A DNA stretch of 64,000 nucleotides, taken from positions 1-64,000 of the forward strand of contig NZ_JGYP01000001.1 of assembly GCF_000741525.1 (NCBI RefSeq). The letters run 5' to 3'. Position numbers and translations under genes: made by a program. Every line of letters starts with the position of its first letter. Positions within the stretch are counted from its first letter, which is position 1. The DNA comes from Bifidobacterium bohemicum DSM 22767 (GTDB lineage: Bacteria; Actinomycetota; Actinomycetes; Actinomycetales; Bifidobacteriaceae). Below are positions 8,891-28,369 of this stretch, one piece after another. The notes beneath the pieces are model-generated. The model had not been told where the DNA came from and did no database searches. It saw only the letters and a list, made by a program, of their open reading frames with translations.

Positions 8891-11428
8891 ATGACACAGA
8901 CTCTGGGAGAATTGGCGCCAAGCCGGGATGGCGAGAGTGCGCGCAACATAGATGCCGACCAAATTTACCAACGGTTCTTCGACTGGGTGCGCGACGTCAA
9001 AGGCGTAGATCCATGGCCGCATCAGGAGGAAGCGGTCATGGATCTGCTGGTGGGCGACCATGTGATTCTGAGTACGCCCACCGGTTCAGGCAAGTCGTTG
9101 GTGGCACTTGGCATGCACTTCGCGGCTTTGTGCACTGGTAGGCGTTCGTACTATACGGCACCGATCAAAGCTCTCGTCTCCGAGAAGTTCTTCGATTTGG
9201 TCGAGGCTTTCGGTCACGACAACGTCGGGATGATAACCGGCGATACGTCCATCAACTCCGACGCGCCGATTATCTGCTGCACCGCCGAAATTCTCGCAAA
9301 CCAGGCGTTGAGAGAAGGCGAAACCGCCGACATCGGCTGCGTGGCGATGGACGAGTTCCATTACTATGGTGACCCGGATCGCGGATGGGCTTGGCAGGTG
9401 CCGCTTCTGACCCTACCGCAGACGCAGTTTTTGTTGATGAGCGCCACGTTGGGTGATGTCAATGCCATTGCTGACAAGCTTGAAGACATGACCGGTATCG
9501 ACGTTGATGTCATCGACGACGCCCCACGTCCGGTGCCGCTGTCATATCGGTATACCGACAGGCCACTCGCGGCAACTGTCGAGAATCTGTTCAATAACAG
9601 TGACACTCCGATTTATGTTGTCCATTTTTCGCAGGATGCGGCGCTTGAGACGGCGCAGGCACTGGCCAATACCGGGGTATCCAGCAAACAGCAGCGTCAG
9701 GCGATTGCCGATGCCATGAAGGGCACGAGTTTCACCACAGGCTTCGGCAAGATACTCCAACGCCTGCTGCGCACGGGCGTCGGCATTCATCACGCCGGTA
9801 TGCTGCCCAGGTATCGCAGACTTGTCGAGCAGTTGGCACAGCAGGGTCTGTTGCCGGTTATCTGCGGAACGGACACGCTCGGCGTCGGCATCAATGTGCC
9901 GATTCACTCGGTGGTGCTGACGCAGTTGACCAAATTCGACGGCAATAAGATGCGTCGTTTGCGGTCCAGGGAGTTCCATCAGATCGCAGGTCGCGCCGGA
10001 CGTATGGGCTTCGACACCGAAGGACTGGTGGTGGCCGAGGCCCCGGAGTTTGAGATAGAGAACGCCAAGGCCCTTGCCAAGGCCGGTGACGACCCGAAGA
10101 AGCTCAAGAAAATCAAGCGTAAGAAGCCGCAGGAAGGTTTTGTCTCATGGAACGAGGGCACGTTCGACAAGCTCATCGAGGCGGCTCCCGAGACGCTGAC
10201 CCCGCATATGAAGGTCACGCATGCGATGGTTCTCAATGAGGTGGCTCAAGGAGGAGATGCACGTGCACGTTTGGATCGGTTGATCGATGATTCCTCGCAG
10301 AGTCCCGACCAGAAGGAATACCTGCATCAACGGGCCGAGGAGATTTTCGACACCATGTTCGACTCCGGCTTCATCGATTCCGACGAGGACGGACGTGGCG
10401 GGAAGGACTATCACTTGGCGGTCGATGTGCCGGATAATTTTGCACTAGACCAACCGCTTTCGCCCTTCCTGCTGGCCGCACTTGAACTGCTTGACCCTGA
10501 ATCCGACACCTATGCGCTCGATGTCATCTCCATGGCCGAAGCCACGCTCGACGACCCCAAGCAGGTGCTTAAGGCGCAACAGCGTCAGGTGCGCGACGAG
10601 GCCATGGCCCAGATGAAGGCGGACGGACTGGATTACGACGAGCGCATGGAGAAGCTGCAGGAGGTCACTTGGTCGAAGCCTCTTGAACGGATGCTCGATG
10701 CGGCGTTTGAACAGTATCGTCACGATGTGCCCTGGGCCGCCGATTATGAGCTCAGCCCGAAATCGGTGGTGCGCGACATGGTCGAGACCGCCAGCGATTT
10801 CAACGGGTATATAGCCCGATACAACATCGCCCGCTCCGAAGGCACCTTGCTGCGTTACCTTTCCGACGCCTACCGTACGCTTGCGCGAACCGTGCCGGTC
10901 GAGAAGCGCGATGACCAGCTGGAGGACATCATCTCATGGCTGCGCGTGGTGGTGCGTTCGGTCGATTCAAGCCTGGTGGACGAGTGGGAGCAATCGGAAT
11001 CGCCGGACTCGGGCGCCGAGAATCTGGCCGCCCCGAGCGGGGCTCCGAAGGCCGTCGAGGATCGTCGTGGTCTGATCGTGCTCATTCGCAACGCCATGTT
11101 CCGCCGCATCCAGCTGATGGATCGTGATGACGCAGTGTCGTTGGGTGCGCTCGACAAGGATTGGGGTTACGGCGTTCATCAGTGGGAGGATGCGCTTGAC
11201 GACTACTATGACGTACATGAATACGTCGGCATCGACCAGCAGGCCCGAAGCGGGGATTTGTTCATCCTTGACGACCGCAACGAGGCCAAGGAACACACCT
11301 GGAAGGTGCGTCAGATCATCGACGACTCCGATGGCGACCACGATTGGGCCATCACCGGAACCGTTGACCTCGATGCCACGCAGGAAGGTGGGGAAGTCGT
11401 TTTCGTTGACTATCGGGTTGGCGACTGA
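8891..11428 (+). CDS. DEAD/DEAH-box helicase with C-terminal DUF3516
   Basis: Superfamily 2 helicase of 845 residues. Motif I is STPTGSGKS, motif II is DEFH (in VAMDEFHYY), motif III is LMSATLG and motif VI is QIAGRAGRMG. The core resembles Ski2/Mtr4-like RNA helicases. The C-terminal half (from about residue 415) lacks helicase motifs and corresponds to the DUF3516 region found in actinobacterial members. It starts 24 bp after gluD with a modest ribosome site (AGAGG) and may be transcribed with the transporter. The substrate (RNA or DNA) is not determinable from the sequence. Confidence 0.88.
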   Translation: MTQTLGELAPSRDGESARNIDADQIYQRFFDWVRDVKGVDPWPHQEEAVMDLLVGDHVILSTPTGSGKSLVALGMHFAALCTGRRSYYTAPIKALVSEKFFDLVEAFGHDNVGMITGDTSINSDAPIICCTAEILANQALREGETADIGCVAMDEFHYYGDPDRGWAWQVPLLTLPQTQFLLMSATLGDVNAIADKLEDMTGIDVDVIDDAPRPVPLSYRYTDRPLAATVENLFNNSDTPIYVVHFSQDAALETAQALANTGVSSKQQRQAIADAMKGTSFTTGFGKILQRLLRTGVGIHHAGMLPRYRRLVEQLAQQGLLPVICGTDTLGVGINVPIHSVVLTQLTKFDGNKMRRLRSREFHQIAGRAGRMGFDTEGLVVAEAPEFEIENAKALAKAGDDPKKLKKIKRKKPQEGFVSWNEGTFDKLIEAAPETLTPHMKVTHAMVLNEVAQGGDARARLDRLIDDSSQSPDQKEYLHQRAEEIFDTMFDSGFIDSDEDGRGGKDYHLAVDVPDNFALDQPLSPFLLAALELLDPESDTYALDVISMAEATLDDPKQVLKAQQRQVRDEAMAQMKADGLDYDERMEKLQEVTWSKPLERMLDAAFEQYRHDVPWAADYELSPKSVVRDMVETASDFNGYIARYNIARSEGTLLRYLSDAYRTLARTVPVEKRDDQLEDIISWLRVVVRSVDSSLVDEWEQSESPDSGAENLAAPSGAPKAVEDRRGLIVLIRNAMFRRIQLMDRDDAVSLGALDKDWGYGVHQWEDALDDYYDVHEYVGIDQQARSGDLFILDDRNEAKEHTWKVRQIIDDSDGDHDWAITGTVDLDATQEGGEVVFVDYRVGD

Positions 11429-11533
11429 GTATTTTTGCGCTGATTGCGTCCGTCCAGTCGATTCCGCTGACTCTGCTGTGTCTGCTTACTGGTTCTTTGA
11501 CGCTCAAATGATGTGAGTGTCGGGAACCGGTAT

Positions 11534-11542
11534 GGGGGGGGG
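11534..11542. repeat. Homopolymer run of nine G
   Basis: Nine consecutive G on the plus strand. On the minus strand this is nine C lying 8 bases after the stop codon of the degraded membrane-protein gene (11551-11931). No reading frame clearly depends on it. Confidence 0.9.
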
Positions 11543-11550
11543 ATGTGACG

Positions 11551-11931
11551 TCATCGTGTCTCGAAATAGCGGAAGAGATGTGACTCCTTGATGAACGTCG
11601 CCGTGAATAATGCGGCGAGAAGAGTAGCGGCCGCAAGGGCTATCGGTGGGCGGATGGCGGTGGCCGGCACGGAATGAACGTTTCGACGGCTACACCGAGC
11701 AGCAGCGCGCCTCTACTCTGACCGGAGTGAAGCGCGCCCGCGTACTCGAGTCGGCGCCGGCGCACGGTCCGGCAGCCACAGTGCACACGCGGCAACGAAA
11801 AGGCATGAGGCCAGCAGCACGGCGAGCAACAGCCAGGTCACCGGCACCAGTCCTGAAGTGGAACGCAAATGTCTTTCGTCGTTATACTGGGATTTTTGTT
11901 CGGTTGATCCTGCTTTTGCTGCCGCTTCCAT
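11551..11931 (-). pseudogene. Small two-helix membrane protein interrupted by one in-frame stop
   Basis: The ATG directly follows the stop of the lipoprotein relic (TAAATG), so the two were translationally coupled. The first 72 codons encode a polar N-terminus and a strong membrane helix (VTWLLLAVLLASCLFVAACALWL). An amber codon follows at 11713-11715. Past the amber the same frame stays open for another 53 codons and encodes a second hydrophobic segment (IALAAATLLAALFTA) and a charged tail ending at a TGA (11551-11553). Removing the single amber therefore gives a 126-residue protein with two membrane spans. This is direct reading of the sequence. The family is not recognised. A membrane protein beside a small secreted peptide could serve immunity or export, but that is inference. 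Confidence 0.55.
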
Positions 11932-12290
11932 TTAGAGTCCGTTGGGGAATTTGATGAGTTTGATTTCCTTGTAGCCTCTGCTGGTCATGCAGGTTTTGTA
12001 GTCGGACCATGCGGATTCGCAGTACGAGATGGACACCTTGCCGCCGTGTTGTAGTGCTCGTTGGAGTATCGCGCGTTGTGAGTCGGAGACATTGTCGTTC
12101 TTCAGTATGTCGTTGATGAAGTCGGGTGGTGAGGCGGCAAATTTCTCGTCGGTTTGTGACGTGTACTGTGACGGCTGGTATCTGATTTGGCCAACCTTCG
12201 GTTTTGGTCGGCGACGCGCAGCCCGCAAGGGCCAGAAACGCTACACACAAAAACAGCGAGCAGCCGGAACGGCCTTCTAAGTGACGATTT
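11932..12290 (-). pseudogene. Frameshifted lipoprotein gene
   Basis: Three reading frames read in succession give one plausible lipoprotein. One frame supplies a basic start (LRRPFRLLAVFV), the next the end of a signal peptide with a lipobox (FLALAGC, then ASPTKTEG), and the third a mature part running to a stop at 11932-11934 (IRYQPSQYTSQTDEKF, later ESAWSDYKTCMTSRGYKEIK). At least two frame changes, near 12250 and near 12195, are needed. No proper start codon lies between the stop of the upstream secreted-peptide gene and the signal sequence. The mature domain with its two Cys residues resembles a small lipoprotein type I associate with bifidobacteria, but I cannot name a family. Confidence 0.55.
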
Positions 12291-12306
12291 GCTGGCCGCC
12301 GTTGTC

Positions 12307-12626
12307 TCAGCCCCAGACTTTCGCGTCGTCGTTGTGATTTCGGGCTGAGCCCCACGCTTCGACGCTGATCGACTGATTGTTTTTGTTGGTGTTGGCATGT
12401 AAATAGCGCCCGTCCTGCTTTACGCAGGCCGAACCCACGTACCGTGGGCGTCGTGCGTATACGCTTGCTGTGGAATATGTCCATGAGTAGGAGGCGGATC
12501 CGCTGACCCGTGTATTGTCAAGAGATGCAGCTTGGGCTGGTAACGCTCCAAAGCACGATGCAAGGGTGGAAGTTAGTATTGTCGCCCCCCCCCCACAGCG
12601 GTCAATGTTTTTGCTGATTTTTCCAT
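12307..12626 (-). pseudogene. Small secreted protein, frame broken by a run of ten G (candidate phase-variable gene)
   Basis: The start ATG (12624-12626) follows GAGGGG by 6 bases. It opens a signal-peptide-like sequence (MEKSAKTLTA, then glycines). A run of ten G at 12585-12594 then shifts the frame, and the sequence as given stops after 17 codons. With one more G (or two fewer) the frame continues through a hydrophobic core and a likely cleavage site (ALPAQA) into a mature part of about 72 residues. That part is rich in Ser, Tyr, Asn and Trp and ends at a TGA at 12307-12309 (landmarks SGSASYSWTYSTASVYARR, GSACVKQDGRYLHANTNK, EAWGSARNHNDDAKVWG). The restored precursor is 106 residues. The coherent product argues against chance. 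It is reminiscent in layout of small secreted bacteriocin-like precursors such as the lactococcin 972 type, but I see no diagnostic motif, so function is open. Confidence 0.65.
12585..12594 (-). repeat. Run of ten G in the signal-peptide region of a secreted protein gene
   Basis: It reads as ten C on the plus strand and ten G in the coding direction. It encodes glycines at residues 12-14 of the precursor and sets the reading frame: lengths of 8 or 11 are in frame, and the 10 present is out of frame. Long G runs are prone to slippage during replication. Confidence 0.9.
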
Positions 12627-12670
12627 GCTAATGCCCCTCATAAAAAATCGATAGATGTCATGTGCTCTAC

Positions 12671-12676
12671 ATTGTA
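12671..12676 (-). promoter_or_regulatory. Possible -10 box of the secreted-peptide operon
   Basis: TACAAT is read on the minus strand about 45 bp upstream of the start codon. No good -35 match sits at 17 bp; CACTTA is the best there, and TTGACA is 37 bp away. Confidence 0.3.
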
Positions 12677-12855
12677 ACACATGTTGGATATGCTAAGTGA
12701 GGTTCTGGCTTACTGTCAATTATGCGTACCACATAGTGATACAAAGAATTGTTCTTTGCGCCGGGAGTAATGTTCCGTTGCTATGCGTCCGTGGTTTCGG
12801 CAGTGTGTTTGCTTTGTGGCTTTCTTCGTTCTTTGATCTGCCGAAACTCGATAGG

Positions 12856-12869
12856 CGAACAGATGTTCG
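12856..12869 (+). promoter_or_regulatory. LexA-type SOS box upstream of rarA
   Basis: CGAACAGATGTTCG is a perfect palindromic match to the CGAACN4GTTCG form of the actinobacterial and Bacillus SOS box. It overlaps the predicted -35 hexamer of rarA. The same 14 bases recur upstream of ruvA. Confidence 0.75.
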
Positions 12870-12894
12870 ACACTTCATCGGTGTCGAGTAGAAT
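12866..12894 (+). promoter_or_regulatory. rarA promoter, probably giving a leaderless transcript
   Basis: TTCGAC (12866-12871) and TAGAAT (12889-12894) are separated by 17 bp. The ATG of rarA begins 7 bases after the -10 box, so the first transcribed base would fall on or beside the A of the start codon. No ribosome-binding sequence precedes the ATG. Confidence 0.6.
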
Positions 12895-12900
12895 GAAGTT

Positions 12901-14277
12901 ATGACTGAGGATTTGTTCAGCGCGGCGGACGCGCCCGAGGATGTCACCCGTCCGTTGGCCGTGCGGATGCGCCCTACCAGGCTTGAGGATGTGCTGGGGC
13001 AGGCGCAGGTGATGGGTCAGGGGTCGCCGTTGCGAAGGCTGGCGAATCCGGCCTCCAAAGGTTCGTTGACGGCTCCGAGTTCGATCATTCTGTTCGGCCC
13101 TCCAGGAGTGGGTAAGACGACGCTGGCCTATATCGTGGCGCAGCAGTCCGGGCGCGTGTTCGAGGAACTTTCGGCGGTCACCTCCGGAGTCAAAGACGTG
13201 CGGGCCGTGCTTGAGCGGGCGCACGAGCGTTTGGTGACCAGCGGGCGTGAGACGGTGCTGTTCATTGACGAGGTGCACCGTTTCTCGAAGTCGCAGCAGG
13301 ACGCGTTGCTGCCCAGCGTGGAGAATCGTGACGTGACCTTCATCGGCGCGACCACGGAGAATCCCAGCTTTTCGGTCATCAAGCCGTTGCTCAGCCGGTC
13401 CGTGGTCGTCAAACTCGAATCGTTGGAACCTGAGAACCTCAAGACGCTTATCGAACGGGCGCTCGCCAGCGATGAGGGGCTTAAGGGCGAGGTGAAGGCG
13501 GATGAGGGCGCCATCGACCAGATCGTTCGTATGGCCGGAGGTGACGCGCGTAAGTCCCTGACGATTCTTGAAGCGGCGGCAGGCGCCGTAACGGGAGACA
13601 AGGAACGCAAAAAAGGTGCGCGCAAGCCCGTCATCACCGCTGAAATCGTCGGGAAGGTGATGGACTCGGCCACGGTGCGCTACGATGACGGTGGAGACGA
13701 CCATTACGACGTGGCCTCGGCGTTCATCAAGTCCATGCGTGGATCGGATCCTGATGCGGCATTGCACTATCTGGCCGTGATGCTCAGGGCCGGCGAAGAT
13801 CCGCGCTTCATCGCCCGGCGTATCATGATCGCCTCTGCCGAAGAGGTGGGCATGGCCGCTCCTCAGATTCTTCAGGTCACGGTTGCGGCTGCGCAGGCCG
13901 TGGCGATGGTCGGGATGCCAGAGGCGCGAATCATCCTGTCCGAAGCGGTGATAGCCGTGGCCACCGCGCCCAAGTCGAACGCCAGCTACCTGGCAATCAA
14001 CGAGGCCTTGGCGGACGTAGACGCGGGGCATGTGGGTGAAGTGCCGCTTCACTTGCGCAACGCTCCGACCAAACTTATGAAACAGTGGGGCAACCACGAT
14101 GGCTACGTTTACCCCCACGACGCGCCCGGCGCCGTCGCCGCGCAGCAATACATGCCGGACGAACTTCAAGGCCGTGAATACTACCATCCCAATGACCGCG
14201 GTTACGAGCGTGAGGTGGGTCCAAGACTTGAAAGGATACGGGAGATTCTGCGTGGAAATTCAAAGTCGGAGCCCTAA
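12901..14277 (+). CDS. rarA: Replication-associated recombination protein A (AAA ATPase)
   Basis: AAA+ ATPase of 458 residues in the RarA/MgsA/WRNIP1 family, which acts at stalled replication forks. Walker A is GPPGVGKTT, the Walker B region is FIDEVHRFSKSQQD, and sensor 1 is GATTENPSF. The C-terminal half contains the MgsA tetramerisation region (GSDPDAALHYLAVMLRAGED, and YLPAEL-like RMIDELQGREYY, here YMPDELQGREYY). A LexA-type box over the promoter suggests DNA-damage induction. A long minus-strand frame (12781-14187) is an antisense shadow of this gene. Confidence 0.95.
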   Translation: MTEDLFSAADAPEDVTRPLAVRMRPTRLEDVLGQAQVMGQGSPLRRLANPASKGSLTAPSSIILFGPPGVGKTTLAYIVAQQSGRVFEELSAVTSGVKDVRAVLERAHERLVTSGRETVLFIDEVHRFSKSQQDALLPSVENRDVTFIGATTENPSFSVIKPLLSRSVVVKLESLEPENLKTLIERALASDEGLKGEVKADEGAIDQIVRMAGGDARKSLTILEAAAGAVTGDKERKKGARKPVITAEIVGKVMDSATVRYDDGGDDHYDVASAFIKSMRGSDPDAALHYLAVMLRAGEDPRFIARRIMIASAEEVGMAAPQILQVTVAAAQAVAMVGMPEARIILSEAVIAVATAPKSNASYLAINEALADVDAGHVGEVPLHLRNAPTKLMKQWGNHDGYVYPHDAPGAVAAQQYMPDELQGREYYHPNDRGYEREVGPRLERIREILRGNSKSEP

Positions 14278-27689: not shown

Positions 27690-27762
27690 GCGGACATAGC
27701 TTAGTTGGTAAAGCGCGACCTTGCCAAGGTCGAGACCGCGGGTTCGAGTCCCGTTGTCCGCT
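27690..27762 (+). tRNA. tRNA-Gly (GCC), copy 1
   Basis: It folds as a complete cloverleaf: acceptor GCGGACA pairs with TGTCCGC, the anticodon loop TTGCCAA gives GCC, and the T-arm is GGGTTCGAGTCCC. It is identical to the copy at 28114-28186. CCA is not encoded. Confidence 0.96.
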
Positions 27763-27791
27763 CTAGGTCCGAGGAGTTGTAACGACCTTAC

Positions 27792-27862
27792 GGTGGGTTA
27801 GCCAATCGGTTAGGCAGCGGCCTGCAAAGCCGTATAGACGAGTTCGACTCTCGTACCCACCT
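27792..27862 (+). tRNA. tRNA-Cys (GCA)
   Basis: Acceptor GGTGGGT pairs with ACCCACC, the anticodon loop CTGCAAA gives GCA, and the T-loop is TTCGACT. It is 71 bases long. Confidence 0.95.
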
Positions 27863-27900
27863 CGGAATGGAAGATTTCGGTTTTCCGTTTCCAAAGACCC

Positions 27901-27972
27901 GGGCGGTTGGCGCAGAGGTAGCGCACTTCCCTGACACGGAAGGGGTCACAAGTTCGAATCTTGTATCGCCCA
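27901..27972 (+). tRNA. tRNA-Val (GAC)
   Basis: Acceptor GGGCGGT pairs with ATCGCCC (one G-U), the anticodon loop CTGACAC gives GAC, and the T-loop is TTCGAAT. A terminator hairpin follows immediately. Confidence 0.95.
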
Positions 27973-28000
27973 CAAAAACCGGAGGAGACTCCGGTTTTTG
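27973..28000 (+). terminator. Terminator within the tRNA cluster
   Basis: CAAAAACCGGAG (27973-27984) pairs with CTCCGGTTTTTG (27989-28000) around a 4-base loop, with a T run in the descending arm. It suggests that the first three tRNAs form one unit. Confidence 0.85.
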
Positions 28001-28022
28001 TTTCACAATTCAATATGCGTTT

Positions 28023-28095
<73 letters not shown>

Positions 28096-28113
28096 CGGAG
28101 CCGAGAGGTTTTC

Positions 28114-28186
28114 GCGGACATAGCTTAGTTGGTAAAGCGCGACCTTGCCAAGGTCGAGACCGCGGGTTCGAGTCCCGTTGTCCGCT
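28114..28186 (+). tRNA. tRNA-Gly (GCC), copy 2
   Basis: It is identical base for base to the copy at 27690-27762. Confidence 0.96.
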
Positions 28187-28369
28187 CTTATATTGTGTCA
28201 GTGTTTTCCTTTAGTGGATTTCTAATCATTTTATTGACGGATTGTTCGTCTCTGAAATTGTACTCATGTAAGTTCAATTCGATGTCTACATGACCTCATA
28301 TCGTTGTCATTGTTGATTTTCGTCCCGGCCTGCCCCTAGTAACGCGGGCCCTGAAAGCAAAGGACAACC

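Follow-up and report, generated by a model that had tools for sequence, protein, structure and literature searches.

The 64,000 nucleotides of Bifidobacterium bohemicum DSM 22767 analysed here (hereafter, the window) carry a small gene, apparently for a secreted protein, whose reading frame is broken at a run of ten G. This locus raises two questions: what does the gene encode, and is the break one position of a switch or the mark of a lost gene? A previous reading based on the letters alone (hereafter, the sequence-only reading) had left the second question between a phase-variable factor and a recently decayed gene.

The small gene and its run of ten G

The gene starts on the minus strand with an ATG at 12626 and is broken at the G-run (Table 1). 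As printed, the frame from this ATG (MEKSAKTLTAVGGGRQY) stops after 17 codons; the frame 3′ of the run stays open until the stop at 12307, and the two parts sum to 106 residues, which confirms the lengths given by the sequence-only reading. A putative Sec signal peptide followed by a small mature domain was recognised by eye in the window frames and in homologues, the cleavage site being assigned in the same way. The gene also presents an early coding G-run that sets the frame, a trait of phase-variable G-tract genes. The chance of a 92-codon open stretch is about 2.6% in a given frame and 7.7% in any of the three. Since the open frame by itself is weak evidence, the case for a real protein rests on homology and on the fold model.

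Long G-runs exceed the expectation from dinucleotide shuffles in the window, with three G10 matches for 0.17 expected (2 of 100 shuffles reach three) and eight G9 matches for 0.62 expected (0 of 100 reach eight). Besides that of the gene, runs of 9-10 G are located at 11534, 17730, 46285 and 46465, and all five lie outside predicted genes. Elsewhere in the window, five tRNA genes (Gly, Cys, Val, Val, Gly) are clustered at 27690-28187.

Table 1. Positions in the window of the small gene, its parts and the adjoining operon remnants.
Feature	Position	Strand	Basis
Gene for the small secreted lactococcin-972-like protein; frame broken at the G-run in the assembly	12307..12626	-	sequence, homologues, fold model
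GAGGGG, ribosome-binding-like site, 7 bases 5′ of the ATG	12634..12639	-	read from sequence
G10 within the signal-peptide part	12585..12594	-	C10 on the plus strand, that is G10 in the gene
Mature domain (predicted; 73 residues); all-beta model, closest to lactococcin 972 among solved structures	12310..12528	-	model; cleavage site by eye
Partner lipoprotein, signal/lipobox remnant, in a frame different from that of the body	12203..12271	-	weak match, E 0.012
Partner lipoprotein, body remnant, 58% identical to G083 over 103 residues; internal stop at 11932-11934, rest missing	11872..12180	-	
Adaptor-like protein remnant, about 33 residues	11755..11853	-	E 3e-9
ABC-type permease, internal remnant	11673..11777	-	sequence match
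Permease, C-terminal remnant, in another frame	11554..11673	-	sequence match
Second G-run (G9), adjoining the operon remnant	11534..11542	+	sequence

Relatives of the protein and its predicted fold

A search with the single sequence of the mature part detected relatives in 3 of the 111 other genomes of the genus, and a profile search extended them to 16 of the 189 genomes of the family, the window's own included, at an E-value of 1e-8 or better (these genome sets contain one genome per species). This cut-off was our choice and keeps 16 of the 29 genomes (among 189) that match at E 0.001; many of the weaker profile rows lie in long open frames and resemble signal-peptide noise. A scan of a genome collection with the single protein gave no confirmed relative, and viral contigs and plasmids contained none. 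One genome, G026, encodes about six homologues of the small protein (contigs C5, C7, C11, C12, C17 and C36).

We checked 12 homologous genes: L007 (G040), L008 (G026), L009 (G042), two in L092, two in L064 (G042), and those of L088, L087, L081, L083 and L086. Ten of them are open; the G026 gene is frameshifted at another place and the second B. jacchi copy (L092) is shortened. A run of at least six G is absent from the 400 bases after the start codon in all 12, and L207, one further member from the profile search, is likewise devoid of a G-run. The window gene alone, among 13 family genes checked, presents a coding G-run, and conservation of the run, another trait of phase-variable G-tract genes, was found in 0 of the 12 other genes. 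The sequence-only reading had called for a search for open relatives and had held that homologues all broken at other positions would speak against it. Open relatives do exist, none of them by way of a coding G-run, and with ten of the 12 open the family as a whole is not broken. The leader of the B. vespertilionis homologue contains a G9 (L087, 146-154), 57 bases 5′ of the start codon, where it could affect a promoter, a single case among these genes.

AlphaFold2 models of the mature part (73 residues, 9 sequences) reach a best mean pLDDT of 91, the five models going from 91 down to 69, and predict an all-beta domain with seven strands. Among 998 re-aligned chains, lactococcin 972 (2lgn) ranks first with a Z-score of 7.0 and an rmsd of 2.3 over 63 of 66 residues (the next chain has 4.5), a score in the range below 8 which, according to the tool's own warning, can reflect a common arrangement. 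Foldseek alone placed 2lgn at rank 29 with a weak E-value of 1.2. The model of the window mature part thereby presents the predicted beta-sandwich fold of lactococcin 972. Moreover, a profile-profile comparison with bifidobacterial lactococcin 972 proteins, from which L195 was left out as a near copy of L194 (one of the eleven lactococcin 972 stretches described below), gave a probability of 53% over 36 columns; none of 30 column-shuffled controls exceeded 2%.

The Pfam model of lactococcin 972 (PF09683) matches neither the window protein nor the homologues scanned, and in a genome search it had no match in the window genome and a single match in G040, at another locus. Since the Pfam model fails to recognise it, we do not file the window protein as a PF09683 member. 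It nevertheless looks like, and is positioned like, a lactococcin 972 member: both are small secreted all-beta proteins with a signal peptide, 2lgn is the best structural match, and a Pfam member holds the same operon slot in another genome, G072 (see below). The window protein differs in that its sequence lies below Pfam detection, its gene is out of frame, and its operon comprises a lipoprotein, an adaptor-like protein and an ABC-type permease, none of the scanned genes being recognised as encoding a DUF1430 protein. Our preferred interpretation of the product is a putative divergent lactococcin-972-like bacteriocin, and the earlier guess of a secreted, possibly antimicrobial protein gains support from the fold and from the operon context. 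Other candidates were set aside: sub-threshold Pfam and NCBIfam matches (Big_6 at E 0.0038, OmpA-like, claudin and others) were discarded, and a sequence search with alignments against solved structures returned an endoglucanase C (E 1.1) and a DUF4352 protein (E 0.066), both unconvincing.

For lactococcin 972 itself, PMC9964109 describes lipid II binding and an inhibition of septum formation. According to PMC12345188, mediterrocin (NF052268) is likewise a lactococcin-972-related secreted bacteriocin from the gut, but its own cluster has a DUF1430 immunity-like protein. A neighbouring seven-helix DUF1430 immunity-like protein is also a trait of the lactococcin 972 family, and a Pfam scan of three G040 partners (lipoprotein, adaptor-like protein, permease) found no such domain. 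The NCBIfam model NF052268 does not match the window protein, and its match to the G040 homologue (E 0.043, 13.9 bits) falls far under the 40-bit cut-off. A lactococcin 972 gene of B. longum subsp. infantis is mentioned in PMC8477406, together with a NarX-like kinase two accession numbers away. Among the matches listed in our search of the open-licence literature (titles and openings of abstracts), neither the small-protein family nor its operon is described.

The operon in relatives and its remnants in the window

In G040, genes for a lipoprotein, an adaptor-like protein and a permease come after the small gene, and those for a response regulator, a kinase-like protein and an ABC ATPase lie in the opposite orientation. 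The names adaptor-like protein, kinase-like protein, ABC ATPase and permease (FtsX/MacB-like or ABC-type) are labels given by reading; a Pfam scan of G040 recognised the regulator alone (Response_reg and GerE) and gave no meaningful match for the adaptor-like protein, permease and kinase-like protein. The same gene set, with several lipoproteins, is present in B. leontopitheci (G042). In G072, the homologous operon is headed by a Pfam lactococcin 972 protein (45.9 bits for a cut-off of 22). Homologues of the lipoprotein, adaptor-like protein, ATPase and permease come next, and the regulator and the kinase-like gene are divergent. We examined 11 of the 15 lactococcin 972 matches from the genome search; the operon is shared by one of these 11 stretches, and the other ten are without lipoprotein, adaptor or permease matches. 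None of the 11 lactococcin 972 genes has a G-run longer than five in its signal and domain part.

Other genomes retain parts of the set. G019 (L061), G037 (L062) and G060 (L063) have the permease, adaptor-like protein, ATPase and a shortened lipoprotein match, and the small gene, regulator and kinase-like match were not found within these stretches. G083 has near full-length matches to the lipoprotein, adaptor-like protein, ATPase and permease, and the small gene was not found. The model of the partner lipoprotein has a pLDDT of 83 and resembles nothing in the PDB by Foldseek at E 0.001 or better.

The corresponding genes of the window are reduced to the remnants of Table 1, located between a helicase gene (8891-11428) and rarA (12901-14277). 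No convincing match to the ATPase, regulator or kinase was detected in the window from 11000 to 13500, the best being an ATPase match at E 0.013 inside rarA, and profile searches found no other copy of the lipoprotein or permease elsewhere in the genome. Among 29 relatives searched over 1.5 kb on either side of rarA, lipoprotein and adaptor-like matches occur in G083 only; two other relatives show, beyond rarA, matches to generic regulators or ATPases. Since the lipoprotein, adaptor-like protein and permease are all fragments, the window holds a decayed operon. An otherwise intact gene and operon would be expected of a phase-variable gene; here the mature frame is clean and the operon partners are fragmentary. 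The 94 codons after the run contain no lesion, versus at least two in the about 126 codons of the lipoprotein remnant, and at equal lesion rates the chance of a clean small gene is about 22%. With such a figure, constraint on the small gene is neither demonstrated nor excluded, and recent death is not separated from function.

Slippage, assembly or decay

We counted 74 runs of at least nine G in the genome (122 minus 48), and the exact counts are 11 runs of 8, 28 of 9, 44 of 10, 2 of 11 and none longer. This corresponds to an 11-mer/10-mer ratio of 0.04, the smallest among 30 genomes having at least twenty 10-mers, the next being 0.24. This sharp ceiling at ten may come either from the assembly capping long runs or from the lineage itself. 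Because run lengths end so abruptly, the printed length of ten is doubtful and unfit for calling the gene off. Of 61 runs examined for their position, 53 lie outside predicted genes and 8 inside, though 77% of the sequence is coding, a share computed from the window and 36 stretches chosen around runs. G-runs thus occur mainly where the frame is irrelevant, bearing in mind that genes were predicted with our own codon-score caller and that those broken by a run count as outside.

A screen for signal-peptide genes with a G-run retained 7 of the 61 runs versus 65 of 1220 random places, i.e., about twice the control; it missed the window gene, and four of its seven cases are convincing by eye. L142 (C2:484134 of the window genome, G000) and L143 (C2:498246) are similar lipoprotein genes with a G10 just after the signal peptide, out of frame. 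L160 (C4:99405) encodes a secreted protein of 473 residues with a G10 at the same place, in frame, and L150 (8126-8136; C2:716525) is a signal-peptide gene with a C11 just after the signal peptide. The open frames after the run are short in L142 (64 codons) and L150 (48 codons). L143 and L160 are better candidates for phase variation than the window gene.

The true run could be longer or shorter than printed, as a consequence of sequencing or assembly, and this explanation, compatible with the others, is a real possibility although we lean against it. The sharp stop at ten and the lowest ratio of the 30 genomes speak for it, but low ratios also occur in run-poor genomes (G084 has ten 10-mers and no 11-mer) and G-stretches at contig ends lift the ratio in some others, as seen for G004. 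Besides, open frames of 686-979 codons are intact in the window, which indicates that indel errors are not widespread, and the stop and deletions of the operon are not homopolymer slips. As for the product, the small protein might, instead of being a bacteriocin, act as a signal or as an envelope-stress protein, with the lipoprotein and the regulators as sensors. In several relatives its gene is indeed linked to a LuxR/GerE-type response regulator with an adjacent kinase-like protein and to several lipoprotein paralogues, and the scanned genes, in which no DUF1430 immunity protein was recognised, would suit this proposal, but we regard it as unlikely, given the lactococcin-972-like fold and the true lactococcin 972 at the same operon position in G072.

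A contingency locus, in which slippage of the run would toggle an orphan lactococcin-972-like protein independently of the dead operon genes, seems unlikely to us. The run lies inside the signal peptide, a site suiting a switch, the frame downstream is clean, and L142, L143, L160 and L150 have a similar layout. There is also a precedent in the sortase-dependent pilus genes of B. breve UCC2003, for which PMC9187656 reports signal peptide and LPXTG part in two frames split by a G-tract, slippage that was measured, and G-tracts in such pilus genes of other species. The likeness is that of a long G-run splitting a secreted-protein gene into two frames; the pilus genes, as presented there, differ in being pilin operons with measured slippage and with G-tracts in several species, whereas the window operon is wrecked and the coding run occurs in one of the 13 family genes checked. 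A switch is further disfavoured by the lack of a coding run in the 12 homologous genes, by fragmentary operon partners, the genome giving no further match to the lipoprotein or permease, and by the position of most G-runs outside predicted genes. We are a little more doubtful about a phase-variable bacteriocin, in which slippage in a subset of secreted genes, the orphan included, would give populations in which producers and non-producers coexist once the immunity operon has been lost.

We therefore consider it probable that the locus is a divergent lactococcin-972-like gene of a decayed operon, the small gene being dead and hit by a slippery G-run. Decay is preferred since the downstream operon genes are fragmentary and none of the 12 homologous genes has a coding G-run; between the two alternatives of the sequence-only reading, the recently decayed gene fits better, and the phase-variable factor loses ground. 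The small gene would have encoded a secreted lactococcin-972-like protein, whose most likely role is that of a Sec-exported bacteriocin, and would once have headed an operon also encoding a lipoprotein and an adaptor/ABC-transporter set. These partners probably served immunity or sensing, and in relatives a response regulator often lies beside them. Between the helicase gene and rarA, this operon has been eroded by deletions, a stop and a frame break, leaving the small gene as its last nearly whole piece, out of frame at a G-run of the type found mostly outside predicted genes. We infer that the gene is dead rather than switched off.

These results call for caution, as a G-run in one assembly is no evidence of a switch when such runs are common in the genome, lie mostly outside predicted genes and have printed lengths that look capped. 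They also bring to light a family of small secreted proteins (16 of 189 genomes at E 1e-8 or better), without Pfam or NCBIfam name in the members scanned, which we connect with the lactococcin 972 fold and with an operon for lipoproteins and an ABC-type transporter. This family provides a testable set of bifidobacterial competition systems.
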